DNA of 64,000 bases, taken from Rhizobium subbaraonis (GTDB lineage: Bacteria; Pseudomonadota; Alphaproteobacteria; Rhizobiales; Rhizobiaceae). The stretch covers positions 248,001 through 312,000 of the forward strand of contig NZ_OBQD01000002.1 of NCBI RefSeq assembly GCF_900220975.1. Reading direction: 5' to 3'. A model generated the notes under the pieces. That model ran no database searches. It saw only the letters and a list, made by a program, of their open reading frames with translations, and was not told the DNA's origin. Below, in pieces: positions 41,836-64,000 of this stretch (within the stretch, counting starts at the first letter, position 1; the number at the start of each line of letters is the position of its first letter). The position numbers were made by a program, and so were the translations under genes.

Positions 41836-41876
41836 GCTGGGAGCTCCAGTCCTGGTATTGGGGGCATGCGGCCGCG

Positions 41877-42890: not shown

Positions 42891-42893
42891 CGG

Positions 42894-44222: not shown

Positions 44223-44253
44223 CGTCGTGTCCTTGATGAGCGGCCCCAAGGGG

Positions 44254-45995: not shown

Positions 45996-46063
45996 GGGTA
46001 CCGATCCTCGCAATGCAAACAGAAGGCCCGCCGCCAGAGGGGAAGCGACGGGCGGGCGGGGCC

Positions 46064-47182
46064 TCAGCCCTGCATGATTTCCTTGAACTTGGCGAACCAC
46101 TGGCTCTCGTTCTCGACCTGCACCTTCGAAGAGATGCGGATGAGATGCTTGAAGTCCTCTTCGGTGGTCGGGTAGGACGGATCGCCAACGAGATCGGCCG
46201 GCGGCGTCAGGCCCGGGACCACGCCCGGCAGACCGAGACCGTCGAGCCAGACCTGCTGGGCTTCCTTGGTCAGCGCGTGATTGATGTACTGCTTGGCCCA
46301 GTAAAGCTCGTTCTCCGGCAGGCCCTTGGGAATCCAGAGGCCATCCGTATCGAACTTGGCGCCTTCCTCCGGCACAACCCATGCAAGCTCGATGCCGTTC
46401 TTCCTGGCTTCGCGCGCATTGGTGGAGATGGTGCAGGCGGCGTCGATCTCGCCCTTCTGGAACCAGGTGGTGAAATCCGGATCTTCGCCGAGCAGCGGCT
46501 GCTGTTCTTTGATTTTCGCGATAAAGTCCCATGCCGGCTGCATGTTGCCAGGAATGTCCTCCAGCTTGCCGCCGCCGGCAACCTGTGCGGGGAAATGGAA
46601 GCCGATGCCGTCGTTATAGAGCGCGATGCGGCCCTTCAGCTTGGGATCGAGCAGGTCCTTCCAGGACTTCGGCGCGCCGTTGGGGAAAGCCGACGGGCGA
46701 TAGGCGAGAACGTAAACGTAGCCGTAGGTGTTGACGATCGGATAGCCGTCGAGGCCGACCGGCTTGGCGAGATCGGTGGTGTTCTTCAGGTTCGGCAGGT
46801 CGGAGAGATCTTCGGTCACGCCGCGCAGCGCCGACTTGGTCGCGTTCGTCGTCGTGTCCCAGTTGATGTGGATCGGCGGCACGCGGCCCTGTGCGACAGC
46901 GGCCCAGACCTTCGGCTGGATCTCGTTGTCCTCGGTCAGGTCGTGGCGAACAGCGATGCCGGTCATCTTGGTGAAGCTGTCGGAAACGCCGGCCTTCAGG
47001 CTATCGACCCAGCTGCCGCCCCAGGCGCGCACGATGATTTCGGAAGGCTTCTCAGGCTCCTGCGCAAAAGCCTTGCTGACGCCGAGCGTCGACAGGCCGG
47101 CAGACGCTCCGACGGCGGCCATGGAGCCGAGCAGCGTGCGGCGGCGGATTTGAGCGGACAGGATCTTATCATTCGGCATCAT
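46064..47182 (-). CDS. polyamine-type ABC importer periplasmic binding protein
   Basis: 372 residues; AGGAG lies 5 nt before ATG 47182. Tat-type signal (QIRRRTLLGSMAAVGASAG) with cleavage near SKAFAQEP. Class II binding fold of the PotD/PotF family (WGGSWVDSLKAGVSDSFTK; YWAKQYINHALTKEAQQVW). Polyamine-binding aromatic/acidic residues cannot be confirmed by eye. It follows the ATPase gene after 30 nt. The ligand may be an imidazole amine or amino alcohol, judged only from the operator and the enzymes in the operon. Confidence 0.9.
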   Translation of the reverse strand: MMPNDKILSAQIRRRTLLGSMAAVGASAGLSTLGVSKAFAQEPEKPSEIIVRAWGGSWVDSLKAGVSDSFTKMTGIAVRHDLTEDNEIQPKVWAAVAQGRVPPIHINWDTTTNATKSALRGVTEDLSDLPNLKNTTDLAKPVGLDGYPIVNTYGYVYVLAYRPSAFPNGAPKSWKDLLDPKLKGRIALYNDGIGFHFPAQVAGGGKLEDIPGNMQPAWDFIAKIKEQQPLLGEDPDFTTWFQKGEIDAACTISTNAREARKNGIELAWVVPEEGAKFDTDGLWIPKGLPENELYWAKQYINHALTKEAQQVWLDGLGLPGVVPGLTPPADLVGDPSYPTTEEDFKHLIRISSKVQVENESQWFAKFKEIMQG

Positions 47183-47212
47183 ATGTTCTCCTCTGAATGG
47201 ACCGTGCAGCGG

Positions 47213-48343
47213 TCACTTCTTGAATACATGCATGTCTTTCGCATTCCACCCGAGCCGGACATTCTCGCCCGGACCGAACTGCAGGTGCGATACCGGATCG
47301 TGGTCGAACACGCGAAGGATGGCGCCACCGAGCGCCGGCACCGTCACCTCGTAGACCATCCGCTCGCCTTCGAAAATGGAATCGGTGACCTGTCCCTCGA
47401 CAATCGTTTCCAGACCTTCGAGCGCGGTACGCGCAGAAGCGATGCGGATCTGCTCGGCGCGGACGGCACCGGAACAGGCGGAACCGTCGACGAGCGGAGC
47501 GCCATCAGCGGCAACGACACCCGCCAGAACCTGACCATTCGATTCGACACTCACCGTCGAGCCGGAAATCGCCGACACCTTGCCGTCGATGAAATTCGTG
47601 ACGCCGATGAAATTGGCGACGAAGGCGTTGGCCGGCGAGCGGTAGGCATGCACGGGCTGGGCCTTCTGCTGGATCTCGCCGCCATCCATGACGATGACTT
47701 CATCCGACACCACCAGCGCCTCGCGCTGGTCGTGCGTGACATTGATCGTGGTGACCCCGAGCTCCCTCTGGATGCGCCGGAATTCTAGCTGCATCTCTTC
47801 GCGCAGCTTGCGGTCGAGTGCGGCCAGCGGCTCGTCGAGGAGGAGCAGATCCGGCTCGAACACGAGGGCGCGAGCGATCGCGACGCGCTGCTGCTGACCA
47901 CCCGACAACTCGTTGATCCGCCGGCCACCATAGCCGCCGAGGCGGACGAGTTCCAGGTAGCGCTCCACCTTCTCGCCGATCGTGCGGGCATCGTGACGGC
48001 GCATCTTCAGCGGAAAGGCGACGTTTTCGGCGGCCGTCATATGGGGGAAAAGCGCCAGCTTCTGGAACACCATGCCAATCGCACGCTTGTGCGGCGGCAC
48101 CGCGCTGACCGGCTGGCCGTTGATGAAAATCTCGCCGCTGGTCGGCTTGTCGAAACCGGCGATCATGCGCAGAAGGGTGGTCTTGCCGGAACCGGAAGGC
48201 CCGAGGATCGTCAGGAATTTTCCCTTCGGCAGATCGAAAGACGCGCTTCTGACGGCATGGACATTCCCGAAGACCATTCCGACATCCTTGACGGAGACGG
48301 CAATCGCGCCGGCCTTGTGGAGATCGGTGGAAACAATGCCCAT
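47213..48343 (-). CDS. polyamine-type ABC importer ATPase (PotA type)
   Basis: 376 residues from ATG 48343 (GGGGAA upstream); the longer frame to 48394 runs through promoter DNA. Walker A GPSGSGKTT, signature LSGGQQQR, Walker B LLLLDEPLAALD, H-loop NVTHDQREA, then a TOBE_2 domain. First gene of an operon that continues with binding protein, two permeases, HisD-like, zinc dehydrogenase and kinase. Its promoter contains a HutC-type palindrome over the -10 box. Confidence 0.92.
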   Translation of the reverse strand: MGIVSTDLHKAGAIAVSVKDVGMVFGNVHAVRSASFDLPKGKFLTILGPSGSGKTTLLRMIAGFDKPTSGEIFINGQPVSAVPPHKRAIGMVFQKLALFPHMTAAENVAFPLKMRRHDARTIGEKVERYLELVRLGGYGGRRINELSGGQQQRVAIARALVFEPDLLLLDEPLAALDRKLREEMQLEFRRIQRELGVTTINVTHDQREALVVSDEVIVMDGGEIQQKAQPVHAYRSPANAFVANFIGVTNFIDGKVSAISGSTVSVESNGQVLAGVVAADGAPLVDGSACSGAVRAEQIRIASARTALEGLETIVEGQVTDSIFEGERMVYEVTVPALGGAILRVFDHDPVSHLQFGPGENVRLGWNAKDMHVFKK

Positions 48344-48446
48344 GTCATTCCCCTGCTCTTCCCTCACCTGCGGCGCATGGCGCCACCAGGTCAAGGGCTC
48401 GTTTCATCCGACCGGCAGACACTCCCATCCGCCAGCGGGATGGATG

Positions 48447-48458
48447 ATGTATATACAT
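48447..48458. promoter_or_regulatory. HutC-type operator over the ABC/HisD-like promoter
   Basis: ATGTATATACAT, a perfect 12-bp palindrome containing TGTATATACA, which fits the published HutC form TGTA-N2-TACA. It overlaps the -10 box and lies 104 nt upstream of the ATPase start codon. The identical 12-mer recurs between hutF and hutI. hutC itself is 2.2 kb away. Confidence 0.75.
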
Positions 48459-48492
48459 ATTGAGCCGGCCACCGTCAACGACAATTGCGTAA

Positions 48493-48540
48493 ATTTTGCA
48501 CTTGCACAAAAGACGCACACAATTTGTGCAGATGCAAAAT
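48493..48540. repeat. nested inverted repeat upstream of the ABC/HisD-like promoter
   Basis: ATTTTGCACTTGCACAAA (48493-48510) and TTTGTGCAGATGCAAAAT (48523-48540) are inverted arms matching at 16 of 18 positions around a 12-nt spacer. A smaller dyad GCACA-CAATT-TGTGC (515-529 of the same kilobase) is nested inside. Placement just upstream of the -35 suggests a site for a second regulator, possibly an activator; which protein binds is unknown. Confidence 0.65.
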
Positions 48541-48656
48541 ACGCCATCAATCCAGGTTCTGTCTTTGCCGCAGCAAGCGAAAAAGGCAAGCGCGTTGGAA
48601 GGGTGAAGGCGCAGTCTTCCGCAACTGTGCTGTCGAATAGCGCGATCGTGATGACT

Positions 48657-49424
48657 TCAGATCGAGGAGAGGTAGCCGCCGTCGACGGGTATGCAGTGCC
48701 CCGTCACATAGGCCGCCGCCTCGCTGCAGAGGAACACGGCGACACCGCCTATGTCCCCCTCCCCGCCGAAGCGGCCCTGCGGAATCCGCGACAGCATTCG
48801 GGACTGCCAGTCCTCGTCCTGATAGAATACCTCCGTCATCGCGGTACGGAAGTACCCGGGCGCGATCGCATTGACGCGAATGCCGTGCGGAGCCCATTCC
48901 GTCGCAAGCGCCCGCGTCATGCCGAGGAGACCGGACTTGGAGGCACCGTAGGGCACAGCCGTCGGCACGCCCACATAGGACGTCAACGAGCAAAGGTTGA
49001 CCATCGCGCCGCCGCCACGCTTTGCCATGATGCGGCCAGCCGCCTGCGCACAGAAGAAGGAACCCTTCAGGTTGATCGAGAGGATCGTGTCCCAGATCGC
49101 TTCGTCGAGGTCCAGCGACGGCTGCACGTTCTCAAAACCGGCATTGTTGACGAGGATATCCAGCCCACCCAACTGATCGGCGGCTGCGGCCGTCACCGCC
49201 CGGCACGATTCCACGTTGCTCACGTCCTGGGCGAGCGCGATGCATCTGCGCCCCGCCTTCTCGACCAGCGCCACCGTTTCAGCAAGATTTTCGACCTTGC
49301 GCGCCGTCACGGCGACATCCGCGCCGGCCTCGGCCAGGGCAACGGCAATCGACTGGCCGATGCCGCGGCTGGCGCCGGTGACAAGGGCGAGGCGTCCGGT
49401 CAGATCGAAGTTGGGGCGGGTCAT
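48657..49424 (-). CDS. short-chain dehydrogenase/reductase of the HutC-linked cluster
   Basis: 255 residues from ATG 49424, with AAGGAG 5 nt upstream. NAD(P) loop TGASRGIGQSIA, NNAGFENVQ, catalytic Ser in LCSLTSYVGV and Tyr-x3-Lys in YGASKSGLL. An Arg/Lys after strand 2 (VAVTARKVENL) hints at NADP. Faces the HisC-like gene across a short divergent promoter and lies upstream of the ABC/HisD-like operon on the same strand, so read-through is possible. Probably reduces or oxidises a pathway intermediate. Confidence 0.88.
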   Translation of the reverse strand: MTRPNFDLTGRLALVTGASRGIGQSIAVALAEAGADVAVTARKVENLAETVALVEKAGRRCIALAQDVSNVESCRAVTAAAADQLGGLDILVNNAGFENVQPSLDLDEAIWDTILSINLKGSFFCAQAAGRIMAKRGGGAMVNLCSLTSYVGVPTAVPYGASKSGLLGMTRALATEWAPHGIRVNAIAPGYFRTAMTEVFYQDEDWQSRMLSRIPQGRFGGEGDIGGVAVFLCSEAAAYVTGHCIPVDGGYLSSI

Positions 49425-49474
49425 GGCTGCTCCTTTATAATCCACCGTGGGATGACAACACTTTCCCGAAATAA

Positions 49475-49492
49475 TGTCTATACATATATACA
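49475..49492. promoter_or_regulatory. degenerate HutC-type site in the SDR/HisC divergent promoter
   Basis: TGTCTATACATATATACA contains TGTCTATACA (49475-49484), one mismatch from TGTA-N2-TACA, overlapping a second half-matching TATATACA. It is 51 nt upstream of the SDR start and 58 nt upstream of the aminotransferase start. Weaker than the other two sites; operator function is inferred from position and similarity. Confidence 0.55.
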
Positions 49493-49549
49493 GGAGTCGA
49501 TTCCTGCCCTATGACTTGGAGCAAAATCGCTTCCCATGGAGTATGCAAT

Positions 49550-50662
49550 ATGGCCGACGTTTCGAGCACCATCCGCGCGGAAGTCCGTTCGCTCGCACCA
49601 TACAATGCCGGGCTGACGCTGGAAGAGGTCCGCACACGTTATCAAGTGGATCGTATCGCCAAACTCGGCTCCAACGAGAACCCCCTCGGCCCCTCGCCCC
49701 GGTTGCGGAAGCTCTTTGCCGACATCGGCGATCTCGCGCGACTCTATCCCGATCCGCAGGGTCGCGCCCTCTGCGCAGAGATTGCCGGACACTTCGGCGT
49801 CGGCACCGGGCAGGTCATTCTAGGAAATGGCTCTGAGGATCTGATTGCGGTCGTTTGCCGCTCGGTCGTGCGTCCCGGCGACACGGTTGCAACGCTCTAT
49901 CCGTCCTTTCCGCTGCACGAGGACTATGCGACACTGATGGGCGGCATCGTCGAGCGCGTGACCGTGCGCGACGATCTGGAAATCAATCTCGACGCACTTG
50001 TCGCCGCCGCACGCCGCAAGCCGCGCATCCTGATGTTCTCGAACCCGATGAACCCCGTCGGAAGCTGGCTGTCCCCGGCGGGGCTCAAGACGGTTATCGA
50101 GGCCCTGGACGACGAAACGCTTCTCGTCGTCGACGAAGCCTATGCGGAATATGCCGCAGGCGAGGATTACCCCTCCGCGGTCGACCTGCTGGGCGAAACG
50201 GGCGCAAACTGGGTCGTGCTGCGCACCTTCTCGAAGGCCTATGGCCTTGCCGGCCTGCGCATCGGCTACGGGATCGCCAGCGGCGCAGATCTTTGCTCGT
50301 TCTTCGATCGTGCGCGAACGCCATTCAACACGAACGCTATCGCACAGGCTTCGGCGATTGTCGCCCTGGCAGACGAGGGCCATCTGCGCCTTTCGGTCGA
50401 ACACGCGATTGGCGAGCGCGAACGGGTCCGAGAAACCCTGGAATCGTCCGGCTATCGCGTCGCGCCGTCGAAATGCAACTTCCTCTTCTTCGATGCGCGC
50501 GGGAACTCGACCGCCGTTGCGGAGGAGCTGTTGAAGCGTGGCGTTATCGTCAAGCCCTGGAAGCAGCCTGGCTTCGACGCTTTTATTCGCGCCAGCATCG
50601 GCTCGGCGGAAGAAAACGACCACTTCCTGGCCGCGCTCGAAGCCATCCGCGCCGGCCGGTAG
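49550..50662 (+). CDS. HisC-like (histidinol-phosphate) aminotransferase
   Basis: 370 residues from ATG 49550 (GGAG 8 nt upstream; ATG 49511 is less supported). PLP fold type I: ASNENPLGPSP-like start (LGSNENPLGPSPRLRKLF), Asn-Pro in MFSNPMNPVGSWLS, Asp/Tyr in VVDEAYAEYA, the PLP Lys in RTFSKAYGLAGLRIGYG and Arg in FIRASIGS. HisC swaps the amino group between histidinol phosphate and 2-oxoglutarate; paralogues act on aromatic or imidazole amino acids. Its placement with a HisD paralogue, hutC and hut genes suggests imidazole metabolism rather than biosynthesis. Ends 29 nt from the convergent hutC gene. Confidence 0.88.
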   Translation: MADVSSTIRAEVRSLAPYNAGLTLEEVRTRYQVDRIAKLGSNENPLGPSPRLRKLFADIGDLARLYPDPQGRALCAEIAGHFGVGTGQVILGNGSEDLIAVVCRSVVRPGDTVATLYPSFPLHEDYATLMGGIVERVTVRDDLEINLDALVAAARRKPRILMFSNPMNPVGSWLSPAGLKTVIEALDDETLLVVDEAYAEYAAGEDYPSAVDLLGETGANWVVLRTFSKAYGLAGLRIGYGIASGADLCSFFDRARTPFNTNAIAQASAIVALADEGHLRLSVEHAIGERERVRETLESSGYRVAPSKCNFLFFDARGNSTAVAEELLKRGVIVKPWKQPGFDAFIRASIGSAEENDHFLAALEAIRAGR

Positions 50663-50691
50663 TCCACCCCTCTTACTCTTACCTGAGGGTC

Positions 50692-51420
50692 CTACTGCGA
50701 GGCCGGAGTAAACCTGGCAACGAGCGCATGTTTGTCGCCCGGATAGGTGAAGCGGACCTGGGTGATGGGGCCGAGGCCGCTCCAGGTGCGACGTTCGACG
50801 ACAAGGCAGGCCGCACCGCGCGCAACACCCAGAAGCGCAGCCATTTCGGCGGAGGCGGCGACCGCCTGGATGCGGTGCTCGGCCGTGCTCCACGGAACCT
50901 GGCTCAAAAGCCAGCGACCGGGCGAAACCTCCTTGAAGTCGGCTTCGCCCGCCTCGGGCACGTTCTCCAGGTTGATCAGGCGTTCCTCGACGCAGAATTG
51001 ACGGGGCCCGGCAAAATGCGTGCAGACGATATCAAGCAGCTTCGCGCCTCCTTGCACCTCTAAGCGGCGCACATCTTCCGCCGAAGCCGTTCGCATGGAG
51101 CGCCGCGTGACCTGGAACGTATAGGGCAGGTTCAGCGACTTCACCTCTGCCTCGATATCGTGGATCTCGAGGACCGCCGATTGCGCCTGGGGCTGCTTGA
51201 CGAAGGTGCCGGATTTCTTGCGTCGCTCGATCAGCCCAGCCTTGGCAAGCTGGGTCATTACCTTGTTTACGGTCATACGCGAGCAGTCATACTGGTCAGC
51301 GAGATCGACCTCGAACGGCAGGCGGTGGCCCGGCGGCCATTCGCCGGAAACGATCTTGCCCTCGATGTCGCTCAAGATGCGCTGATGCAAGGTCGCGTCC
51401 TTGCCATTCCTGTCCGTCAC
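50692..51420 (-). CDS. hutC: HutC, histidine-utilisation repressor (GntR/UTRA)
   Basis: 242 residues from GTG 51420; a TTG at 51495 gives a longer unlikely start. N-terminal GntR winged helix (LPFEVDLADQYDCSRMTVNK) and UTRA ligand domain with HutC-typical segments: FCVEERLINLENVPEA, PGRWLLSQVPWSTAEHRI and LVVERRTW, ending RFTYPGDKHALVARF. HutC represses hut genes and is released by urocanate. It is 9 kb from hutI but 2-3 kb from the ABC/HisD-like operators, which suggests it controls both. Confidence 0.9.
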   Translation of the reverse strand: MTDRNGKDATLHQRILSDIEGKIVSGEWPPGHRLPFEVDLADQYDCSRMTVNKVMTQLAKAGLIERRKKSGTFVKQPQAQSAVLEIHDIEAEVKSLNLPYTFQVTRRSMRTASAEDVRRLEVQGGAKLLDIVCTHFAGPRQFCVEERLINLENVPEAGEADFKEVSPGRWLLSQVPWSTAEHRIQAVAASAEMAALLGVARGAACLVVERRTWSGLGPITQVRFTYPGDKHALVARFTPASQ

Positions 51421-51560
51421 GTTTGGTCCGCCCTCTCTCTCGCTTTCCGGCTGATGTAGCGTAGCGCCTTCCAGAACCGAAACGAATTGTTGCAACCGAT
51501 AGTCTGGCCGAGGCCGGATCCGGCAGCATGGTCATGATCAATCGAACCGGCCCTTAGAAT

Positions 51561-52403
51561 CTACAGACCCGAGGACATTTGCTGGATAAACAGTCCGAAA
51601 AGTTCCGCCTGACTGGAAATGTTCAACTTCTGATGGATGTTCTTGCGATGGATCTTGACGGTGCCGGGCGCGATTTTCAGCGTTTCCGCAATCGAGGCGT
51701 TCGAATGTCCCCGCAGGATCAGCGAGGTGATCTCGACCTCGCGCGGCGTCAGTATTCCATTGGTCATCCGGCTCAAGGTCTCGTTGATCGGGTCGTGTGC
51801 AGCGGACGGCCGCGCCGTCACCGGCGCGTGGTCCGCCGAGCCCCAGTGCCCTTCACCAAGCGCGCGCAGCAAAGGCTCGGCATCCCGTATCGAGGCTAGG
51901 TCCTTGCGGCCGAAGGCGGGGGAGGTATTTGGGCGCGTAAAGCTGAAGACGACCCCCGCCCAGTTCGCTGGGCGGCACAGAATTCCGATCTCGTCGCGGA
52001 TGCCGGTCAGGACATAGTGCCGCCGATAATATTCGGAGCTGAAGAAATGGTCGGGCGCCATGTCCTTCAGCCGCAGAATGCCGCCCCCCTTGCGATCCAT
52101 CGCAGCGCTGTAGAAGGGGTCGAGCAGATAGGGCCCGGAGATGTAGGCGTCGATGACGGTGCGGGCGCGCAGCGTATCGATGTTGTGGTAACAGCAGACC
52201 GGTTTGTCGGCGCCGCTGTAGCCGAATACCATCAGGATGTCGAAATCCACGATGGTGGCGAGCGCGGCCTCCAGCCGTTTGCCGAAGGCGTTGGTGCCGA
52301 CCGCTTCCATGGCCGTGGCGACCGCGCTGTTCCACGCCGCAAACCCTTTGTCCAAGAAATGCCCCTTCGCGTCCCCGATAGCCTTCGGGCGCAGACCACG
52401 CAT
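51561..52403 (-). CDS. LuxR-family transcriptional regulator
   Basis: 280 residues. The C-terminal LuxR-type HTH is complete (ILTPREVEITSLILRGHSNA, then IAPGTVKIHRKNIHQKLNIS). The N-terminal 200 residues lack the typical acyl-homoserine-lactone pocket pattern and resemble regulators found beside amine-catabolic glutamine-synthetase genes. Divergent from the GS-like gene across 77 nt holding a perfect palindrome. GGGGA lies 9 nt before ATG 52403. It probably responds to the amine handled by that gene cluster. Confidence 0.88.
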   Translation of the reverse strand: MRGLRPKAIGDAKGHFLDKGFAAWNSAVATAMEAVGTNAFGKRLEAALATIVDFDILMVFGYSGADKPVCCYHNIDTLRARTVIDAYISGPYLLDPFYSAAMDRKGGGILRLKDMAPDHFFSSEYYRRHYVLTGIRDEIGILCRPANWAGVVFSFTRPNTSPAFGRKDLASIRDAEPLLRALGEGHWGSADHAPVTARPSAAHDPINETLSRMTNGILTPREVEITSLILRGHSNASIAETLKIAPGTVKIHRKNIHQKLNISSQAELFGLFIQQMSSGL

Positions 52404-52410
52404 GCCCTTC

Positions 52411-52426
52411 TATCCCCAAGGGGATA
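52411..52426. promoter_or_regulatory. 16-bp palindrome, candidate LuxR-type operator
   Basis: TATCCCCAAGGGGATA: 7-bp arms with an AA centre, in the 77-nt divergent region between the LuxR-type gene (8 nt from its start codon) and the GS-like gene (54 nt from its start). The size suits a LuxR-family dimer. The proximity to the regulator's start codon suggests strong autoregulation or a later true start. Confidence 0.65.
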
Positions 52427-52480
52427 TTTTCATGCCACAGGGCTCAACTCTAGGCTACCCCACACGTCGGGAAACAAGCC

Positions 52481-53821
52481 ATGTCCAAGTCAAGAACTCC
52501 GTCCACCTTCGAAACCAGACTTCAGGAAATCGGTGCACGCGCCGTTCACATCGGCATGGTCGACCCGGCAGGTGAATTCCGCGACAAGCTGGTTTCGGCC
52601 GACAAGGCCGTCAAGCTTGCCGAGCAGGGCTATCCCTTCTGCGAAGTCCTCTATTTCTGGGATATCGCGGAGAACACCTATCGCGACGGCTCCTTCGTCG
52701 ATCGCCCGGCAAAGCTGTTCGACGATACGATCCGGACTTATCCGTTCGCGGCCAACACCGCGCTCTGCCTTGCGGACTTCGATGGCGAATTCGGCCGGCG
52801 CACCCCGCGAAACGTTTGTCTGGCGCAATTGGAGCGCGCCGCCGAACTCGGTTTCGACGTCCTCGCCGCGTTCGAATTTGAGTTTTTCGTTTTCGACGAA
52901 ACGCCCGAGAGCATGCGGGCCAAGCAATACCGCGATCTGACCCATTTCGCGCAGGGCAACCGCACCTATTCGCTGCAGACCTCCGCGCTCCATGGCGATC
53001 TCCTTTCGGGGCTGGAACAGGCGATGGCGACCATGGGTGTGGCGATCGACGCCATGCATACCGAGCTTGGCCCCGGCTGCTTCGAAGCGCCGCTGACCTA
53101 TGCCAAGGGCATCAAGGCGGCCGACGACGCGATGCTGTTCAAGAACTTCGCCCGCGCCTATTTCGCCCGCAACAACAAGACGGTCAGCTTCATGTCGAAG
53201 CTGTCGCCAAAGCTGTCCGGCCAGTCCGGCCACCTACATCTTTCGCTGCGCGACCAGGACGGCAATCCAGTCTTTGCCGATCCGTCCGCGCCGGACGGAA
53301 TCAGCGTCACGGCACGGCACTTCCTCGGCGGCCTGTTGAAGCTCATGCCGGAACTGCTGGCAATGTGTTCGTCGACGGTGAACGCCTACAAGCGGCTGGT
53401 GCCCGGCGCATGGGCGCCGACGGCAGCGAACTGGGGCGTACAGAACCGCACGGCTGCCGTGCGCGTCATCAACGACCAGCCGGCCAGCACCCGTATCGAA
53501 TTCCGCGTTCCGTCCGCCGATACCAATCCTTATCTGGCGCTCTCCATGCTGCTCGGCGCCGGCCTGGCCGGCATTCGCGACGGCATCGAGCCACCGCCCG
53601 GCAGCGCGGAGGATTTCTACGCAGCAAGGCCCGCGCCGGAAGCGGTCTTCCCGCGCGACCTTCACGAGGCCTCGGCCCGTCTGCGGGCCAGCAAGACCGC
53701 CCGCGCGCTGTTCGGCGACGACTTCGTCGACAGTTTCACTGAGAACTGCGACGTCGAATTTGCCGAATATCAGCGGCAGGTGAGCGAATGGGAAGTCAGA
53801 CGCTATCTGGGAGTGGTCTGA
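52481..53821 (+). CDS. glutamine-synthetase-like gamma-glutamyl-amine ligase
   Basis: 446 residues. Ligates glutamate and an amine with ATP. GS landmarks in order: AAFEFEFFVF (metal Glu), GPGCFEAPL (metal Glu), SGHLHLSL (metal His), NAYKRLVPGAW (glutamate-binding region), TAANWGVQNRTAAVRV and RIEFRVPSADTNPYLA (Arg/Glu of the active site). Genuine GlnA-type regulatory adenylylation loop was not recognised. The gene is first in a unit with a polyamine-type importer and an iron alcohol dehydrogenase, so a role in gamma-glutamylation of an imported amine, as PuuA does for putrescine, is likely. Confidence 0.88.
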   Translation: MSKSRTPSTFETRLQEIGARAVHIGMVDPAGEFRDKLVSADKAVKLAEQGYPFCEVLYFWDIAENTYRDGSFVDRPAKLFDDTIRTYPFAANTALCLADFDGEFGRRTPRNVCLAQLERAAELGFDVLAAFEFEFFVFDETPESMRAKQYRDLTHFAQGNRTYSLQTSALHGDLLSGLEQAMATMGVAIDAMHTELGPGCFEAPLTYAKGIKAADDAMLFKNFARAYFARNNKTVSFMSKLSPKLSGQSGHLHLSLRDQDGNPVFADPSAPDGISVTARHFLGGLLKLMPELLAMCSSTVNAYKRLVPGAWAPTAANWGVQNRTAAVRVINDQPASTRIEFRVPSADTNPYLALSMLLGAGLAGIRDGIEPPPGSAEDFYAARPAPEAVFPRDLHEASARLRASKTARALFGDDFVDSFTENCDVEFAEYQRQVSEWEVRRYLGVV

Positions 53822-53858
53822 GCGCCGTCACAACGATCGAAGAAGGAAGGGAAAGATA

Positions 53859-55010
53859 ATGAAAAAGGGAACAGCAGAAACCATGACAGGCACGGCCAGC
53901 CGTCGCTCGGTGCTCAAGGGCATGGGCGGCCTCGGCCTTGGCATCGCAGCAGCAAGCAGCGGCTTCCTCGCATCGCGCGGCAGCGCATCGGCGGCCGAGA
54001 GCCTCAACTACATGTGCTGGGAAGGCTACAACGCCCCCAGCATCCTCGATCCTTTCCAGAAGAAGAACGACGTATCGATCGCAATCGATCTGATCACCGA
54101 CTCGGCCGGTGGCTTCGCCAAGCTCGCGGCCGGCGCGTCTCGCGATTTCGACCTCGTTTCCTCCGACAGCCCATGGATCCAGCGCATGGGACCGGCCGGC
54201 TTCTGCCGCTTCATCGACGACAAGGATTTCGCCGCGCAGTACGAGGATTTCTACCCGCAGTTCCGCGCCCCGTTCGAACCGCTGCAGTTCGAAGGCAAGG
54301 CAACGGGCCTTCCGACGCGCTGGGGCTGGGTCGGCCCGACCGTCAACACCAAGTTCGACAAGCTGGAGACCTGGTCCAGCTATGCGCCGGTCTTCGACCC
54401 GGCTTTCCGGGACAAGATCTGCCTGCTCGACTGGGGTGACTGGCCGATCATGCCGCTCGCGCTCTATGCCGGCGTCAACCCCTACGAGGAACTCGATCAG
54501 GCCGCGCTCGATGAAGTGCGCAAGGTTCTGCGCGCGGCCTTCAAGAATACCCGCGCCATCGTTGCCGACCTTGCCGTCGCGCAGAAGGGCCTCCTCGACG
54601 GCTCCTTCCGCGCCCTGATCGGCGGCGGCACGTACTGCACTTCATCGCTGCGCATCAAGGGCCATGACTACATCCAGTCCATCGTCCCCGAACCGAAGGA
54701 CGGCCTGAAGCAGGGCATCATCTGGATGGAAGCGACCGGCCTGATCGACAACGGCAAGAACACCCAGGTCGCAGCCGATTTCCTGAAATACATCGTTTCG
54801 CCGGACGTGGCCAAGCAGCTCGCTATCACCGACGCAACCTGCAACCTGGTACCCAACAGCAAGGCCGAAGCGCTGTTCTCGGAAGAAGAGAAGAAGGCGT
54901 TGCAGATGGACTATATGTGGACGGCCTGGGACAACAGCCAGTTCCACACGGTCGCGCCGAACATCGACGACATGCTGGCGATCTGGCAGGAAGAACTCGC
55001 CGCCCGCTGA
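53859..55010 (+). CDS. second polyamine-type importer, periplasmic binding protein
   Basis: 383 residues with a Tat-type leader (ASRRSVLKGMGGLGLGIAAA) and likely cleavage near GSASAAESL. PotD/PotF fold (NYMCWEGYNAPSILDPFQKK; LPTRWGWVGPTVNTKFDKL). GGAAGGGAAAG precedes the start. It follows the GS-like gene after 37 nt and probably captures the amine that is then glutamylated. The ligand cannot be read by eye. Confidence 0.92.
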   Translation: MKKGTAETMTGTASRRSVLKGMGGLGLGIAAASSGFLASRGSASAAESLNYMCWEGYNAPSILDPFQKKNDVSIAIDLITDSAGGFAKLAAGASRDFDLVSSDSPWIQRMGPAGFCRFIDDKDFAAQYEDFYPQFRAPFEPLQFEGKATGLPTRWGWVGPTVNTKFDKLETWSSYAPVFDPAFRDKICLLDWGDWPIMPLALYAGVNPYEELDQAALDEVRKVLRAAFKNTRAIVADLAVAQKGLLDGSFRALIGGGTYCTSSLRIKGHDYIQSIVPEPKDGLKQGIIWMEATGLIDNGKNTQVAADFLKYIVSPDVAKQLAITDATCNLVPNSKAEALFSEEEKKALQMDYMWTAWDNSQFHTVAPNIDDMLAIWQEELAAR

Positions 55011-55091
55011 ACCTGAGCGTATCGAACCCGACAGGCCTGCCCTCCTTGGCCGGCCTGTCCATACCCGTTGCAGATATCAAGGACATCGAGC

Positions 55092-56186
55092 TTGGTCAGC
55101 CCCATCATCGACGCCGCCAGGATTGTGAAGGACTACGGTTCGGCGCGCGCGCTTCACGGCGTCTCGCTGCAGGTCGGCGCCGGCGAATTCGTAGCACTCG
55201 TCGGCCCTTCCGGTTGCGGAAAGACGACGCTTCTAAAGATTCTTGCCGGATTCGAGGAACCGACCGACGGCCGCCTGGAAATCGAAGGAAAAGACATGCG
55301 CGGCGTCCCGGCGGCAAGCCGTCCGACGCGCATGGTCTTCCAGAAGCTCGCCCTCTTCCCGCACAAGACCGTGGCAGAGAACATCGGCTTTCCGCTGAAG
55401 CTGCAGAAGGTGCCGGTGGCGGAGACGAAAGACCGCGTGCGCGGGATGCTCGACCTAATGCATCTCAGGCCGGACTATCTCCAGCGCTATCCGGCCCAGC
55501 TTTCCGGGGGAGAGCAACAGCGCGTGGCGCTGGCCCGCGCGCTGGTGTCCCGGCCCGGCGTGCTCCTGCTCGACGAGCCGATGAGTGCGCTCGACGCCAA
55601 GCTGAAGAAATCCCTCCAGGCCGAGCTGAAGAAGCTGCATCGCGAGCTCGGCACCAGTTTCGTGCTCGTCACGCACGACCTGGAAGAGGCGATGATGCTT
55701 GCCGACCGAATCTGCGTCATGCGCGGCGGCCATGTGGTCCAGGTCGGCACCCCGGCCGACATCTACTATCGTCCGGCCAACATGTTCGTCGCCGGCTTCA
55801 TCGGCGAGACCAATTTCTTGCCCGTCGCCGCCGTCCTAACGGCTAGCGGGGTGCAGGTCACCTCCCCCCTGACCCCCGGCGCCAGCGCTGAAATCGCAAC
55901 GGAACATGTCGCACCGTCCCTGTCCGAAAAGGGAACCGCGCTGCTCGTCCGGCCCGAGAGCATCCGCATCGTCCGCAACGATGCCAAAGCCGGCGAATGG
56001 ACGCTGGAGGGCGTGGTTGAGGAGTATTTCATCAAGGGCTCCTCGACACAGTACCGCATTCGCGTGCCCGGCCTCGAGGCGGCCGTGATCGTCGATCTCG
56101 CCGGCTCGATCGTGCTGCCGGCCCGCGTCGGCGAGACGGTCCGCATCGGCTTTGATCCAACCCAGGCCTTCCTTCTGTCGGAGTGA
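55092..56186 (+). CDS. second polyamine-type importer, ATPase
   Basis: 364 residues from TTG 55092, chosen because AAGGA lies 8 nt upstream; a TTG at 55068 lacks any such site. Walker A GPSGCGKTT, signature LSGGEQQR, Walker B VLLLDEPMSALD, H-loop LVTHDLEEA, then a TOBE domain of about 130 residues. Coupled with the two permeases downstream; its stop overlaps the next gene's upstream region. Confidence 0.92.
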   Translation: MVSPIIDAARIVKDYGSARALHGVSLQVGAGEFVALVGPSGCGKTTLLKILAGFEEPTDGRLEIEGKDMRGVPAASRPTRMVFQKLALFPHKTVAENIGFPLKLQKVPVAETKDRVRGMLDLMHLRPDYLQRYPAQLSGGEQQRVALARALVSRPGVLLLDEPMSALDAKLKKSLQAELKKLHRELGTSFVLVTHDLEEAMMLADRICVMRGGHVVQVGTPADIYYRPANMFVAGFIGETNFLPVAAVLTASGVQVTSPLTPGASAEIATEHVAPSLSEKGTALLVRPESIRIVRNDAKAGEWTLEGVVEEYFIKGSSTQYRIRVPGLEAAVIVDLAGSIVLPARVGETVRIGFDPTQAFLLSE

Positions 56187-56188
56187 GC

Positions 56189-57064
56189 ATGAAGATCGAA
56201 GACAAATACTGGAGGGATCCGGTCCTGCTCGCTGCCGTGGCGCCGCTTGCGGTCGTCATGATCGCCTTTTTCCTCGTGCCGCTCGTGATGACTGCGGTGC
56301 TGACCTTCCAGACCACGCAGTACTACCGCCTCTCCTGGAGCTGGGACCTCAAGATCTGGACGGAGGTCTTCTCCAAACCGCACTACTGGACGATCATGGT
56401 GCGCACGGTCGTCATGGCGCTGGTGTGCGTGGCAATCTGCATTGCCATCGCCTTCCCGGCCGCCTATGCGCTGGCTACCCGGCTGAAAACCTTCAAGACA
56501 CAGATCCAGATCCTCATCATCTTCGCCTTCCTGACCGATGCGGTCCTCAAGACCTTTGGCTGGATTCTCATCCTCGACAAGAACGGTGTGGCGAACTGGC
56601 TGCTGATGCACATCGGCTTTCCGGCTGACGCGCTGAACCTCCTGTTTACGCCGGCCGGAACGATGATCGGCATGGTCTACAACCTCGTGGCCTACCCGAT
56701 GTTCACCATCTACCTGTCTCTGGTGCGCATCGATCGCGATCTTGTGCTTGCGGCCTATGATGCCGGGGCTTCCCGTCTGCGGACCTTCTTCGAAGTGACG
56801 CTGCCACTGTCGCGTCCTGGGCTCTATTCCGGTGCGGTGCTGGTCTTCGTGCTCAGCCTCGGCGCCTTCCTGGAACCGAAGGTTCTGGGTGGCGGCACGG
56901 CGCCGCTTGCCTCCGAACTCATCCGCCAGAGCTTCGAAACGCGTGTGAACTGGCCGCTGGGTGCCGCACTCACCATGGTGCTCATCGTCATCGGCGCGCT
57001 GATGCTGGCGCTCTCGTCCGCTTTCGCGCTGCGACGCCGTTCTGCTCCCGGGAGGCCTGCATGA
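56189..57064 (+). CDS. second polyamine-type importer, permease (PotB type)
   Basis: 291 residues from ATG 56189 (GGAG 5 nt upstream; GTG 56183 overlapping the stop is less likely). Six helices, first at about residues 12-35, EAA loop LAAYDAGASRLRTFFEVTLP. Forms the channel with the PotC-type gene that overlaps its end by 4 nt. Confidence 0.92.
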   Translation: MKIEDKYWRDPVLLAAVAPLAVVMIAFFLVPLVMTAVLTFQTTQYYRLSWSWDLKIWTEVFSKPHYWTIMVRTVVMALVCVAICIAIAFPAAYALATRLKTFKTQIQILIIFAFLTDAVLKTFGWILILDKNGVANWLLMHIGFPADALNLLFTPAGTMIGMVYNLVAYPMFTIYLSLVRIDRDLVLAAYDAGASRLRTFFEVTLPLSRPGLYSGAVLVFVLSLGAFLEPKVLGGGTAPLASELIRQSFETRVNWPLGAALTMVLIVIGALMLALSSAFALRRRSAPGRPA

Positions 57065-57897
57065 ACGCCCAGCGCCTTCGCAACGCACTCGTCGATACGC
57101 TGCTTGTCGGAACGGTGGTCCTGTTGCTGCTGTTCTTCTATGCTCCCATCGCCACGCTGGTCGCGTTCTCCTTTACCTCGAGCCGCGTGCTGACGCTGCC
57201 CATCGAGAGCTTCTCGCTCGCCTGGTACGGCGAACTGTTCAGCAAGCCGGATTTCCTCCCGGCAGTCCGCAACTCGGCGGTGGTCGCAGCGGTCTCGACG
57301 CTCTTCGCCACCGTGCTGGGCACCGCCGGAGCCGTCGCCTGGATTCGCTACCGGTTCCGCATGCAGGCCGCGTTCCGCGCGCTCACCTTCGCGCCGCTGC
57401 TGTTCCCTCAGTTGCTGCTTGGCGTCGTCATGCTCCTGTGGTTCTCGGTGCTCGGCAGCTGGCTCGGCTTTTCGAACGGCCTCTTCACCGTCATCATCGG
57501 GCACGTCGTCTACATCACGCCGTTTGCGCTGGTCGTCGTGGCCGTGCAGGTCTACGGCTTCGACGAGACGCTGGAGGATGCGGCGCGCGATGCCGGGGCG
57601 AACGGCTGGCAGGTCTTCCGCGAGGTTACGTTCCCGCTTTTGTGGCCGGGCATCTTCTCGGCCGCCATCTTCGCCTTCCTTCTCTCCTGGGGAAATTTCT
57701 ACATTTCCTATTCGCTCGCCGGAACCGCCCGCACGCTGCCGATTTTCGTCTACAGCGGAATCGCTGTCGGCTCATCGCCGATCTATCCGGCGCTGGCGAC
57801 CCTCAATCTCGTGCCGGCCCTGCTGCTTGTCGTCACCGCCGAATTCCTTCGCCGGCGTGCGCTGAAGCGTCAGTCCTCCGGCAATCTTGCTTCCTGA
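57061..57897 (+). CDS. second polyamine-type importer, permease (PotC type)
   Basis: 278 residues; GGGAGG lies 5 nt before the ATG, which overlaps the previous stop. Six helices; EAA loop LEDAARDAGANGWQVFREVT. The last importer gene; the iron alcohol dehydrogenase follows within 16 nt, indicating one operon. Confidence 0.92.
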   Translation: MNAQRLRNALVDTLLVGTVVLLLLFFYAPIATLVAFSFTSSRVLTLPIESFSLAWYGELFSKPDFLPAVRNSAVVAAVSTLFATVLGTAGAVAWIRYRFRMQAAFRALTFAPLLFPQLLLGVVMLLWFSVLGSWLGFSNGLFTVIIGHVVYITPFALVVVAVQVYGFDETLEDAARDAGANGWQVFREVTFPLLWPGIFSAAIFAFLLSWGNFYISYSLAGTARTLPIFVYSGIAVGSSPIYPALATLNLVPALLLVVTAEFLRRRALKRQSSGNLAS

Positions 57898-57913
57898 AAA
57901 CAAGGTTCCTGCC

Positions 57914-59077
57914 ATGCCCCTCGATACGCCCGCGACAACCACCAACTGGAGTTTCCCGACCGCCGTACGCTTCGGCAACGGCCGTATTGCCGGCCTCGGC
58001 GAAATGGTTCGCGAACTCGGCGGCAGCCGGCCGCTCGTCGTCACCGATGCCGGCCTGAAGGATCTCTATCCGGTTCAGCGCGCCGTCGAAGCGTTGAAAT
58101 CCGCGGGCCTGCCGGTCGCGCTCTATTCCGGCGTCAAGCCCAACCCGACGGGCGGCAATGTCGCTGACGGCGTTGCGGCTTTCCGCGGCGGAAATCACGA
58201 TCTGGTGGTCGCGATCGGCGGCGGCAGCGCGCTCGATGCGGCAAAGGCCATCGCCTTCATGGCGCGGCAGACGGTACCGATCTGGGATCTGGAGGATATC
58301 GGCGACAACTGGAAGCGCGCCGAGACGAAAAACCTCGTTCCCGTGATCGCGATCCCGACGACCGCCGGGACGGGTTCGGAGCTCGGCCGCTCCTCAGTGA
58401 TCACGCATGAGACAGAAAAACGCAAGGTTATCGTCTTCCATCCGCGCATGATGCCCGACGTCGTCGTGATGGACCCGGAATTGACCGTCGGCCTGCCGTC
58501 ACACATCACCGCCGCCACCGGCATGGACGCGCTCTCGCATGCGCTGGAAGCATTCAGCGCGCCCTCCTTCCACCCGATGGCCGAAGGTATCGCGCTCAAT
58601 GCGCTACGTCTCATCCGCAAATGGCTTCCGGTCGCCGTTCATCATGGTGACGACCTCGAGGCGCGCGGACAGATGCTGATCGCGTCGGGCATGGGCTGCG
58701 TCGCCCTGCAGAAGGGCCTCGGCGCCATCCACGCGCTCGCCCACCCGCTCGGCGCGCTCCACGACGCCCACCACGGCCTGCTGAATGCCGTGCTGATGCC
58801 CTATGTGGTCGAATTCAACACACCTGCAATCGCAGACAAGCTGGAATTGCTCGCCCGTTTCCTCGACCTGCCGCGCAAGGATGCGACAGGTGTGGTCGAC
58901 TGGATCGTCGAACTGCGCGGTGACCTCTCCATTCCTGAGAAGCTGTCGGGCATGAGCCTGACGGAAATCGACGTGGACAAGGTTGCGACCATGGGCGTCG
59001 CCGATCCGTGCGCCGGCGGCAATCCCGTGCCGCTCGACGTCAACGGGCTGAAGAAGATCCTGACTGGTGCCGCATAG
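57914..59077 (+). CDS. iron-containing (group III) alcohol dehydrogenase
   Basis: 387 residues from ATG 57914 (AAGG 8 nt upstream; TTG 57887 overlaps the permease gene). NAD-binding GGGSALDAAK; metal ligands Asp and His in GMDALSHALEAF and two His in AIHALAHPLGALHDAHHGLL. It oxidises a primary or secondary alcohol to aldehyde or ketone. Downstream of the GS-like gene and importer, it fits oxidation of an (amino) alcohol, before or after gamma-glutamylation. No aldehyde dehydrogenase is in the cluster. Confidence 0.9.
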   Translation: MPLDTPATTTNWSFPTAVRFGNGRIAGLGEMVRELGGSRPLVVTDAGLKDLYPVQRAVEALKSAGLPVALYSGVKPNPTGGNVADGVAAFRGGNHDLVVAIGGGSALDAAKAIAFMARQTVPIWDLEDIGDNWKRAETKNLVPVIAIPTTAGTGSELGRSSVITHETEKRKVIVFHPRMMPDVVVMDPELTVGLPSHITAATGMDALSHALEAFSAPSFHPMAEGIALNALRLIRKWLPVAVHHGDDLEARGQMLIASGMGCVALQKGLGAIHALAHPLGALHDAHHGLLNAVLMPYVVEFNTPAIADKLELLARFLDLPRKDATGVVDWIVELRGDLSIPEKLSGMSLTEIDVDKVATMGVADPCAGGNPVPLDVNGLKKILTGAA

Positions 59078-59123
59078 GAACTGCGAAGCGGGTGGCAAAG
59101 TTGCGCGACCCTGATGGCAGGCG

Positions 59124-60485
59124 TCAGCCAGCCATCAGCGCCCGCATCGCGCCGACGAAGCGCTTGCGGATTTCGCCGCGAGCGATGTGCCTGCCGCCAA
59201 CGACCTGCCGCTTTCCGCGGGCCCAGACCGTATCGACGGCGACGTCGCCGCCGAAGATCCAGTTGTCGATCAGCTCGTCTCCCGCGAGATAGGGCGCCCC
59301 CGACGCATCGAGCGCGACGATGTCTGCCGGCGCGCCCACCGCAAGCCCCGTCCTCGACGCCAGTGCCGCGCCTGCGCCGGCTACGGCCGCCTCGAAGAGG
59401 CGCCGGCCAGTCGAACCGTTCGGCGCGGCGATGACGTTGCGGGCCCGTAGCGAGAGGCGTTGCGAATATTCGAGCTGCCGCAGCTCTGCAGGCAGCGAGA
59501 TCAACACGTTGGAATCCGATCCAATCCCGAAGCGGCCGCCGCTGGACAGGAAATCGGGTGCCGCGAAGGTGCCGTCGCCGAGATTGGCCTCGGTGATCGG
59601 ACAAAGTCCCGCCACCGCCCCGCTCGCCGCCATATCGGCTGTTTCCTTCTTCGTCAGGTGCGTGGCATGGATCAGGCACCAGCGTTCATCGACCGGCGCA
59701 TTCGAAAGCAGCCATTCCACGGGGCGGGCGCCGGACCAGGCAATGCAGTCTTCCACTTCCTTCGTCTGCTCGGCAACATGGATATGGACCGGCCCGCCGG
59801 CGGCCAGCGGCAGGACGGCCGTCAGTTCCTCGGCCGTGACGGCCCGCAGGCTGTGCGGAGCAATGCCGAGTTGCATTCCGGCGAGACCTGGCTGCATTTT
59901 GCGGCAGGCCTCCATCAGACGGCTGTAGCTTTCAAGCGAGTTGATGAAGCGGCGCTGGCCGTCGATCGGTGCGGCGCCGCCGAAGCCGGAGTGCGCGTAG
60001 AAGACCGGCAGAAGGGTGAGGCCGATTCCCGTATCCGCGCTTGCCGCGGCAACACGCTCCGCGAGCTCGGCGATGTTGGCGTAGGGCTTGCCGTCCTGAT
60101 CGTGGTGCAGGTAGTGGAACTCGCCGACGCGGCAGAAGCCGGCCTCGAGCATTTCCATGTAGAGTTCGGCGGCGACCGCCTCGACCTGCTCCGGCGTCAT
60201 CTTCAACGCAAAGCGGTACATGACGTTGCGCCAGCTCCAGAAGCTGTCTTCGGCCGGACCGCGCAGCTCCGTCAGACCGGACATCGCGCGCTGGAAGGCA
60301 TGGCTGTGCAGATTGCCCATGGCCGGAACGAGAACCGCGTGGCGCTGATCGAAAGCCCCAGCCTCGACGCCGATCTCGATGGCGGAAACGGCATCCTCAT
60401 CCATCGTCAGGCGCACGTCGGAAGCCCAGCCTTCCGGCAAGAGCGCCGATGCCGCGTGAAGCGTCGTGGCAGCTGATTTCGTCAT
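59124..60485 (-). CDS. hutF: formimidoylglutamate deiminase
   Basis: 453 residues of the amidohydrolase superfamily. It converts N-formimidoylglutamate to N-formylglutamate and ammonia in the five-step histidine pathway. Metal-binding motif [28 protein letters not shown], the His in [23 protein letters not shown] and the final Asp in [11 protein letters not shown] are in the right order. It faces hutI across a divergent promoter whose HutC palindrome overlaps the predicted hutF promoter (TTGCGT 60583-60588, 17 nt, TATTAA 60560-60565). Confidence 0.93.
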
Positions 60486-60564
60486 CGTCGTGCGATCTCC
60501 CCTTGCGGCAATCCATTCCCGGACGGAACATGACGCCGAAAATTGCTCTTGTCAGGCGCTTAAT

Positions 60565-60576
60565 ATGTATATACAT
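60565..60576. promoter_or_regulatory. HutC operator in the hutF-hutI divergent promoter
   Basis: ATGTATATACAT, the same 12-bp palindrome as ahead of the ABC/HisD-like operon. It lies 27 nt before the hutI start codon and 79 nt before the hutF start codon, inside the spacer of the predicted hutF promoter. Position on the promoter of classical hut genes supports HutC as the binding protein. Confidence 0.8.
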
Positions 60577-60603: not shown

Positions 60604-61872
60604 ATGTGCGGGAGCGAAAACTTGGCCGACATCTCCTCTGATACTTCCAACAGCCATCCCGGCGTCACCCTCTGGACCAACGCTCGCCTTGCGACGTTCG
60701 CAGAAGGCTCCGAAGGAATGGGAATCGTCGAGCAGGGCGCGCTCGCCGCAAAGGACGGCGTGATCGTCTTCGCCGGTGCTGCGTCCGATCTTCCCAAGGA
60801 TTTGAAGGCGGAGTTAGCGATCGTCGATTGCGGCGGTCGGTGGATCACGCCGGCGCTGATCGACTGCCATACGCACCTCGTCTTCGGCGGCGACCGAGCG
60901 ATGGAGTTCGAGATGCGCCTTGCCGGCGCCACCTATGAAGAGGTGGCGCGCGCGGGCGGCGGCATCGTCTCCTCCGTCAAGGCGACCAATGAGCTCTCCG
61001 TAGACGGCCTCGTCGCGGCGACCCTGCCAAGGCTGGACACCCTGCTTGCCGAAGGCGTCTCGACCGTCGAGATCAAATCCGGATACGGGCTTTCCATCGA
61101 AGGCGAGCTCAACATGCTGCGCGCCGCACGCACCCTGGAAAAGCTCCGGCCGGTCCGCGTCGTCACGTCGTATCTCGCAGCGCATGCGACACCGGTCGAA
61201 TACAAGGGTCGCAATGGCGACTACATCACCAGTGTTGTGCTGCCCGGCATGGAGAAGGCACAGGCGGAGGGTCTCGTTGATGCGGTGGACGGCTTTTGCG
61301 AGGGAATCGCTTTTTCCGTGGATGAGATGCGTGTCGTCTTCGACAAGGCAAAGGCGCTCGGCATTCCGGTGAAACTGCATGCCGAGCAGCTCTCCAATCT
61401 CGGCGGGGCGAAAATGGCAGCCTCCTATGGCGCGCTATCAGCCGACCACGTCGAATATCTGGATGCGGAGGGCGCAGAGGCGATGGCACGGGCCGGTACC
61501 GTCGCCGTGCTGCTTCCCGGCGCCTTTTACGCCATCAACGAAACGCAAAAGCCGCCGGTGCAATTGCTCCGCGACGCCGGCACGTCGATCGCGATCGCGA
61601 CTGATTGCAATCCCGGCACGTCTCCGCTGACCTCGATGCTCCTCGCCATGAACATGGCCGCGACGCTGTTCCGCCTGACGGTGGACGAGTGCCTTGCCGG
61701 TGCGACCCGCGAGGCGGCCCGCGCCCTTGGGCTTCTCGGCGAGATCGGCACGCTGGAGGTCGGAAAGTCGGCCGATTTCGCGATCTGGAACATCGAGCGG
61801 CCGGCGGAGCTCGTCTACCGCATCGGCTTCAATCCTCTCCATTCCCGCATCTTCCGAGGGCAACAGGTATAA
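60604..61872 (+). CDS. hutI: imidazolonepropionase
   Basis: 422 residues from ATG 60604 (AAAGG 8 nt upstream). Hydrolyses imidazolone-propanoate to N-formimidoylglutamate. Amidohydrolase metal motif [19 protein letters not shown], with KLHAEQLSN and the Asp in [11 protein letters not shown]; the Gly-rich [15 protein letters not shown] is typical of HutI. Its stop ends 1 nt before the hutH ATG, so they are cotranscribed. Confidence 0.95.
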
Positions 61873-63413: not shown

Positions 63414-64000
63414 ATGGAGAGCTTCGAGGTCAAACAGGGCACGTCACCGGTCATTCTCGGACTGCCGCATACCGGAACGCAGGTCCCGCCGGACATCTGG
63501 GAGCGCCTGAACGACAACGGGCGGGTACTGGCCGATACCGACTGGCATATTCACGAGCTTTACGACGGCCTGCTTGCCGACGTGACAACGGTTCGGGCGA
63601 CGTTTCATCGCTACGTCATCGATGCGAACCGGGACCCGTCGGGCGCCAGTCTCTACCCGGGCCAGAACACGACCGGCCTTGTGCCGGAGACGGATTTCGA
63701 CGGCAAGCCGATCTGGAGGGATGGCGCCGAGCCTACGATGGAGGATATCGCCGCACGGACCGCGGCCTTCCACGCCCCCTATCACACAGCGCTCGCGGCG
63801 GAGATCGAACGGGTCAGGGCGATCCACGGCATAGCCATTCTCTACGACTGCCATTCCATCCGCTCGCACATACCCTTCCTCTTCGAGGGCAGGCTTGCCG
63901 ATTTCAATATCGGCACCGACAAGGGCGCAACCTGTGATCCGGCGATCGAGCGCGCCGCCGTCGAGGTCACGGCGGCTGCAAGCGGCTACACGAGCGTTCT
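63414..64000 (+). CDS. hutG: N-formylglutamate deformylase, 5' part
   Basis: The first 195 residues, continuing past the window end. Removes formate from N-formylglutamate to give glutamate; this matches HutF as the preceding step. N-formylglutamate amidohydrolase landmarks: VILGLPHTGTQVP, DTDWHIHELYD, FHRYVIDANRDP and YDCHSIRSHIPFLFEG. It starts 4 nt after hutH. hutU (urocanase) is not in the window and may lie downstream. Confidence 0.93.
   Translation, partial: MESFEVKQGTSPVILGLPHTGTQVPPDIWERLNDNGRVLADTDWHIHELYDGLLADVTTVRATFHRYVIDANRDPSGASLYPGQNTTGLVPETDFDGKPIWRDGAEPTMEDIAARTAAFHAPYHTALAAEIERVRAIHGIAILYDCHSIRSHIPFLFEGRLADFNIGTDKGATCDPAIERAAVEVTAAASGYTSV

Follow-up and report, generated by a model that had tools for sequence, protein, structure and literature searches.

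Does HutC, the repressor of the histidine utilization (hut) genes, also govern a nearby operon for an ABC importer and a HisD-like dehydrogenase? The question is raised by a 64,000-nt stretch of Rhizobium subbaraonis DNA (the window; G000:C59:248001-312000, from a genome of 6,576,489 bp on 85 contigs), in which an earlier note had tied this ABC/HisD-like operon to the hut genes through one palindrome. Based on the operators, their recurrence in related loci and the distribution of a second repressor, we consider it likely that HutC controls the operon and that the HutC regulon extends beyond hut.

Operator sites in the window

A window scan located the exact 12-mer ATGTATATACAT at both places claimed for it, and a one-mismatch copy between the SDR and HisC-like genes at 49474-49485 (given earlier as 49475-49484).

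48447..48458, no strand assigned: perfect palindrome over the −10 box, putative operator of the ABC/HisD-like operon (motif scan, promoter geometry)
49474..49485, no strand assigned: one-mismatch palindrome TGTCTATACA between the divergent SDR and HisC-like genes (motif scan)
60565..60576, no strand assigned: perfect palindrome between the divergent hutF and hutI (motif scan)

The arrangement TTGACG-17 nt-TATATA on the minus strand positions 48447-48458 over the −10 box of the ABC/HisD-like operon, in agreement with the earlier note; a simple promoter scanner returned no site over its own cut-off. All three palindromes lie at promoters and fit the operator form TGTA-N2-TACA, two exactly and one with a mismatch. 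On its flank opposite to SDR, the SDR/HisC-like site has an extra TGTA (spacing 8).

The three 12-mer sites compare with 0.00 expected from 100 dinucleotide shuffles of the window. Genome-wide, exact TGTATATACA is found at two places, both inside the window, and TGTATATACA with at most one mismatch at 11 places, three of them in this stretch (27 places for the reversed pattern), so the motif is not common in the genome. The probability that at least three of 11 places fall in one given 12.13 kb is 1e-6, for a stretch that was picked after the sites were seen. The looser TGTA-N2-TACA form with one mismatch occurs four times in the window versus 2.06 expected and is not rarer than chance; the signal is the specific sequence, not the loose form. 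The rest of the genome has eight one-mismatch sites; in an inspection of open reading frames only, with no family search, no hut gene was recognised at these.

Conservation of the operators among relatives

To collect related loci, we used a scan with the binding protein of the operon; the best 80 of 294 related stretches yielded 79 loci of 82-95% identity, that is, closer relatives. Together with the window, the same-genus genome G048 and three loci of other relatives (L169-L171) these make 84 sequences. Locus L014, a contig of a metagenome-assembled genome whose operon copy is mirrored around its middle and which is probably an assembly chimera, was left out of the SDR and ABC site counts and of the −35 geometry counts. 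Locus p-values are uncorrected for relatedness, save in the genus-label check below.

A site with at most one mismatch is present upstream of SDR in 60/75 and upstream of ABC in 40/76 usable regions, where the next best of 20 control palindromes of the same composition reaches 8 and 5. Outside these upstream regions we found 12 hits in 1,611,533 bases, and eight of the 12 lie, by position, at hut promoters (seven in the hutI-hutF interval and the eighth, in L032, ahead of hutC). Three more (L018, L019, L034) belong to ABC promoters that have no paired SDR region, and one lies elsewhere (L170). Loci that were fetched by the binding protein, independently of the motif, include 11 hutI promoters; all of these contain the motif with no more than one mismatch, and a TGTA half-site is seen in none. 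Six of the 11 come from a single Pleomorphomonas-like lineage, whose site is counted as the SDR site too. A separate fetch by exact TGTATATACA, one per genome, added 29 loci, of which 14 match no query gene and 15 adjoin hutI, the latter having been selected by the motif itself.

The promoter geometry recurs as well. TTGA is found at the window's ABC distance in 22/43 ABC sites with at most one mismatch, and TAGACC in eight others; the layout of the window is repeated in G048. Linkage to histidine breakdown is seen in gene content, with hutU in 11/11 relatives that have the solute-binding protein versus 24/50 that do not (p = 0.001).

A second HutC and the regulator of the operon

The gene at 50692-51420, placed between the sites by the earlier note, encodes the sole protein of the genome over the cut-off of the HutC model TIGR02018 (293.5 bits, cut-off 220). 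What the note had not foreseen is a second HutC, HutC2, encoded by a GntR gene between the zinc alcohol dehydrogenase (Zn-ADH) and kinase genes in most relatives examined (56/84 with, 22 without, 6 unclear). HutC2 is about 30% identical to HutC, and its gene is annotated hutC in Sinorhizobium meliloti and Shinella. The S. meliloti HutC2 exceeds the TIGR02018 cut-off (259.5 bits) and scores 115.9 bits with the sensor domain of Pseudomonas syringae HutC, versus 75.8 bits for the window HutC; with the PRK14999 HutC model (cut-off 424) both fall below, at 222 and 134 bits, respectively. A whole-genome TIGR02018 search finds no HutC2 in the window's genome, and the G048 operon also lacks it. As the operon so often carries its own HutC2, an operator there does not by itself mean HutC control.

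The ABC operators differ with the presence of HutC2. A TGTA half-site lies upstream of the ABC site in 32/35 loci with HutC2 versus 1/7 without (p = 1e-4); the single HutC2-less case is the mirrored L014 (p = 2e-5 without it), and by genus label the counts are 16/19 versus 0/5 (p = 0.001). The spacing is 10 in every case; for the HutC subfamily, excerpts of PMC4494728 describe extra half-sites at a distance of 7-12 nt from the centre of the site. The ABC site of the window genome has no extra half-site and is identical to the hut operator. A perfect ABC palindrome is found in 1/35 loci with HutC2 versus 4/7 without, among which the window and G048 are close kin; counting these once and dropping L014 gives 3/5 without HutC2 (p = 0.004). 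We take these contrasts to mean that control of the operon passed from HutC2 to HutC. In most relatives examined, HutC2 probably governs the operon at a longer operator. With no HutC2, no ABC half-site and an ABC operator identical to that of hut, HutC is the likeliest regulator in the window genome. The earlier prediction of shared regulation thus stands in its common operator type, conserved over loci, and in the sole protein over the HutC cut-off, and needs amending for the second repressor.

HutC would sit on three promoter-overlapping palindromes, at hutF/hutI, at SDR/HisC-like and at the ABC-HisD-ADH-kinase operon, and would block RNA polymerase until an inducer, most likely urocanate, frees the promoters. 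Its release would turn on the importer and five enzymes together with histidine breakdown. The Pseudomonas HutC/hut system is alike in its HutC-family repressor, the same TGTA-N2-TACA palindrome, a hut target and a site over the promoter (Phut; PMC12977541, as excerpted); unlike there, the operator in the window extends beyond hut to a transporter/dehydrogenase operon and a HisC-like gene.

Expression data come from S. meliloti, in which SMa0387-SMa0402 (hisC3, SMa0391-0396, hisD2, GntR) is the orthologous operon, with a solute-binding protein 94% identical; in contrast to the window, HutC2 lies inside the operon (strain RCAM1115). In one array of a tolC mutant, hisC3, hisD2, SMa0391-0396 and SMa0402 were down 8- to 24-fold and hutU, hutG and hutH 8- to 12-fold, according to the available part of PMC2912261, whose authors attribute lower transport of nitrogen-rich compounds to a probable NtrC effect. 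Given that probable effect, the array is consistent with shared control but is no proof of it.

Gene content and function of the operon

The genes of the window relevant to this question are as follows.

40540..41835, minus strand: APH-fold small-molecule kinase-like protein, no Pfam family over cut-off (alignment, structure model)
41877..42890, minus strand: zinc alcohol dehydrogenase, PF08240/PF00107 (family models)
42894..44231, minus strand: HisD-like dehydrogenase with altered zinc site (family models, alignment)
44254..45054, minus strand: PotC-like permease (family models)
45051..46007, minus strand: PotB-like permease (family models)
46064..47182, minus strand: periplasmic solute-binding protein, SBP_bac_8 (family models)
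47213..48352, minus strand: PotA-like ABC ATPase (family models)
48657..49424, minus strand: SDR dehydrogenase, PF13561 (family models)
49553..50662, plus strand: HisC-like aminotransferase, PRK05166, 595.6 bits (cut-off 540) (family models)
50692..51420, minus strand: HutC repressor, TIGR02018 (family models)
59124..60485, minus strand: hutF, formimidoylglutamate deiminase (family models)
60604..61872, plus strand: hutI, imidazolonepropionase (family models)
61877..63409, plus strand: hutH, histidine ammonia-lyase (family models)
63414..64000, plus strand: hutG, N-formylglutamate deformylase, running past the window end (family models)

From 40540 to 49424 the minus strand thus holds the kinase-like, Zn-ADH and HisD-like genes, two permeases, the binding protein, the ATPase and SDR, followed by the divergent HisC-like gene to 50662 and then hutC. 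The count of five enzymes outside the textbook hut pathway was correct: kinase-like, Zn-ADH, HisD-like, SDR and HisC-like. The hut pathway itself is complete, with hutF, hutI, hutH and hutG in the window (hutG, though cut by its end, still reaches 284.5 bits over a cut-off of 278.75) and hutU just outside at G000:C59:312257.

The HisD-like protein scores 418 bits on TIGR00069 (cut-off 243.8) and shares with biosynthetic HisD the family, the catalytic Glu-His and two zinc-site His. Where biosynthetic HisD has Gln, Asp, Tyr and His, the window enzyme has Glu, Asn, Phe and Ala. The zinc-ligand exchanges Gln to Glu and Asp to Asn are found in 72/72 comparable rows, window included, with one more row gapped; in the metal/substrate site of these 72 rows Tyr is replaced by Phe, and His by Ala in 71 and by Cys in 1. 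The identities of the HisD zinc ligands are supported by the portion of PMC11382572 available. A separate HisD of 559 bits is encoded elsewhere in the genome. An ordinary histidinol dehydrogenase is disfavoured by the exchanged zinc ligands.

The product of 40540-41835 is by model an APH-fold small-molecule kinase. Residues H253 G254 D255, H257 and N260 are invariant among 26 sequences (alignment A1) and fit HGDxHxxN, the catalytic motif of APH-fold kinases. The structure model (pLDDT 89) matches the fold of methylthioribose kinase and APH (E 1e-4, TM about 0.4), and the Pfam APH score is 17 bits, under the 23.2 cut-off. The family is conserved with the operon and no Pfam or NCBIfam model is over cut-off for it; PDB sequences yielded no meaningful match in a profile search with the protein. 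In S. meliloti and Shinella the kinase gene is followed by one for a flavin mononucleotide (FMN) alpha-hydroxy-acid oxidase. Relatives of this oxidase occur in 18/84 sequences, directly after the kinase in 11/40 with a kinase and enough sequence beyond, and were not found in the stretches examined of the window or G048.

What does the operon metabolize? The HisD-like protein, the PF13561 SDR and the PF08240/PF00107 Zn-ADH form, in one cluster, the family set of HpsN/O/P, which oxidises 2,3-dihydroxypropane-1-sulfonate (DHPS); the same trio was used to pick hps clusters (excerpts of PMC11382572). By analogy, the ABC importer would bring in a side-chain alcohol, SDR and Zn-ADH would isomerise it at C2, the HisD-like enzyme would oxidise the terminal alcohol to the acid, as HpsN/O/P do for DHPS, and the HisC-like enzyme would transaminate the product, perhaps to histidine, which would enter hut. 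The chain from alcohol to hydroxy acid, keto acid and amino acid is one we infer, and our guess at the substrate is an imidazole alcohol, oxidised towards histidine. As a tentative proposal, possible but short of probable, the operon would be a Rhizobiales side-entry to histidine breakdown, in which an HpsNOP-like module with a zinc-exchanged HisD converts an imported imidazole alcohol to histidine and is governed by a HutC paralogue of its own; in the window lineage this paralogue would have been lost and the operon rewired to HutC, the ABC operator changing from TGTA-N6-TGTATAGACA to perfect TGTATATACA.

Alternatively, the operon may serve DHPS or another non-imidazole alcohol with a borrowed HutC-type switch, which is compatible with HutC control. 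The enzyme trio agrees with this, and so do the distant relatives of the binding protein, which are polyamine and agropine binders. Several differences from the DHPS module make it a rather unlikely explanation: alignment finds RGKGSF and no HpsN motif GRY[A/S]H in the HisD-like protein, which has altered zinc ligands and scores 264.9 bits with HisD versus 178.9 bits with HpsN structures; a HisC-like aminotransferase and HutC-type control are present; and the hps transporter of Cupriavidus pinatubonensis is of the MFS family, whereas the window operon has an ABC importer. Linkage to hut genes and HutC-family regulators would also be left unexplained. A literature search, with most subscription journals outside its coverage, returned in the texts available no HutC control or function assigned to the operon.

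Alternative regulators

Several observations weigh against HutC as the regulator of the operon. A site with at most one mismatch is missing in 36/76 ABC and 15/75 SDR regions, and L020 and L021 retain the operon with a two-mismatch ABC site only and no SDR site. The SDR sites show no change to the perfect form (3/44 with HutC2 versus 1/15 without), and the window SDR/HisC-like site has one mismatch and retains a HutC2-like TGTA neighbour, found in 28/44 loci with HutC2 versus 3/15 without. GTMTAKAC is a subfamily-wide consensus among GntR regulators of the HutC type (PMC4494728, as excerpted), so the palindrome alone does not identify the regulator protein, and another GntR, at C84:289835, scores 114 bits on the HutC model. 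In the accessible parts of PMC12977541 and PMC12772324, Pseudomonas aeruginosa HutC can bind sites unlike the consensus, and the title of PMC12772324 has it sensing PCA, which makes both site and inducer uncertain from sequence.

It follows that the operon sites could be relics of HutC2, or be used by another GntR such as that on C84, with HutC controlling only hutF/hutI here. The commonness of HutC2 in the operon and the TGTA neighbour at the SDR/HisC-like site favour this account, which we nevertheless judge improbable: without HutC2, the window genome and G048 retain both operators, the ABC one in perfect hut form, and in three more HutC2-less loci with an ABC site (L030, L032, L089) HutC adjoins the operon.

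Chance overlap of AT-rich palindromes with −10 boxes is an extremely remote possibility. The TATATA core does look like a −10 box, and the loose consensus is no rarity in the window; yet from locus to locus the specific 10-mer returns at these three kinds of promoter, with hardly a copy elsewhere, and the SDR and ABC counts contradict coincidence, the 19 other control palindromes not recurring so.

Ancestry of the locus

In the HutC tree, whose bootstrap had not settled, window and G048 group together (support 100/96) within a wider, more weakly supported group (82/93) with L128 and the hut-linked HutCs of L015, L017, L028 and L032. The window HutC is apart from those of the same-genus G045, G046, G047 and G049, with G044 inside its wider group. 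G045, G047 and G049 have operon and hut on different contigs and retain HutC2 in the operon. This grouping and the separate contigs suggest that the hut-operon supercluster was probably acquired as a unit.

A block at 51561-59077 parts hutC from the hutF promoter in the window and G048, and 51421-51560, before hutC, contains no site with up to two mismatches. Cut off in this way, the window hutC may have lost self-control, unlike relatives in which hutF and hutC adjoin. The block, also in G048 and not in L015, L017 or L028, encodes a LuxR-type regulator, a glutamine-synthetase-like ligase, a Pot-type ABC importer and an Fe-ADH, possibly an amine pathway.

A second urocanase with a similar hutU score (677-694 bits) occurs in 7/11 relatives with the HisD-like operon versus 2/50 without, only the copy of the window's own genome having been typed. 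That genome also has an ergothioneine-use cluster (L188; G000:C84:181000-200500) with thiourocanate hydratase (1036.9 bits, cut-off 930), thiohydantoin desulfurase, ErtD amidohydrolase and a HutH-like lyase, in which the HutC motif was not found.

Implications

Many rhizobial relatives carry this operon, to which HutC control would give a candidate signal and function; the names hisD2 and hisC3 used for its genes are probably misleading. The locus would also be a natural experiment, with one of two paralogous repressors missing and the operator converged on that of the survivor. A switch shared by hut and the operon, conserved in many relatives, points to a nutrient route beside histidine breakdown.

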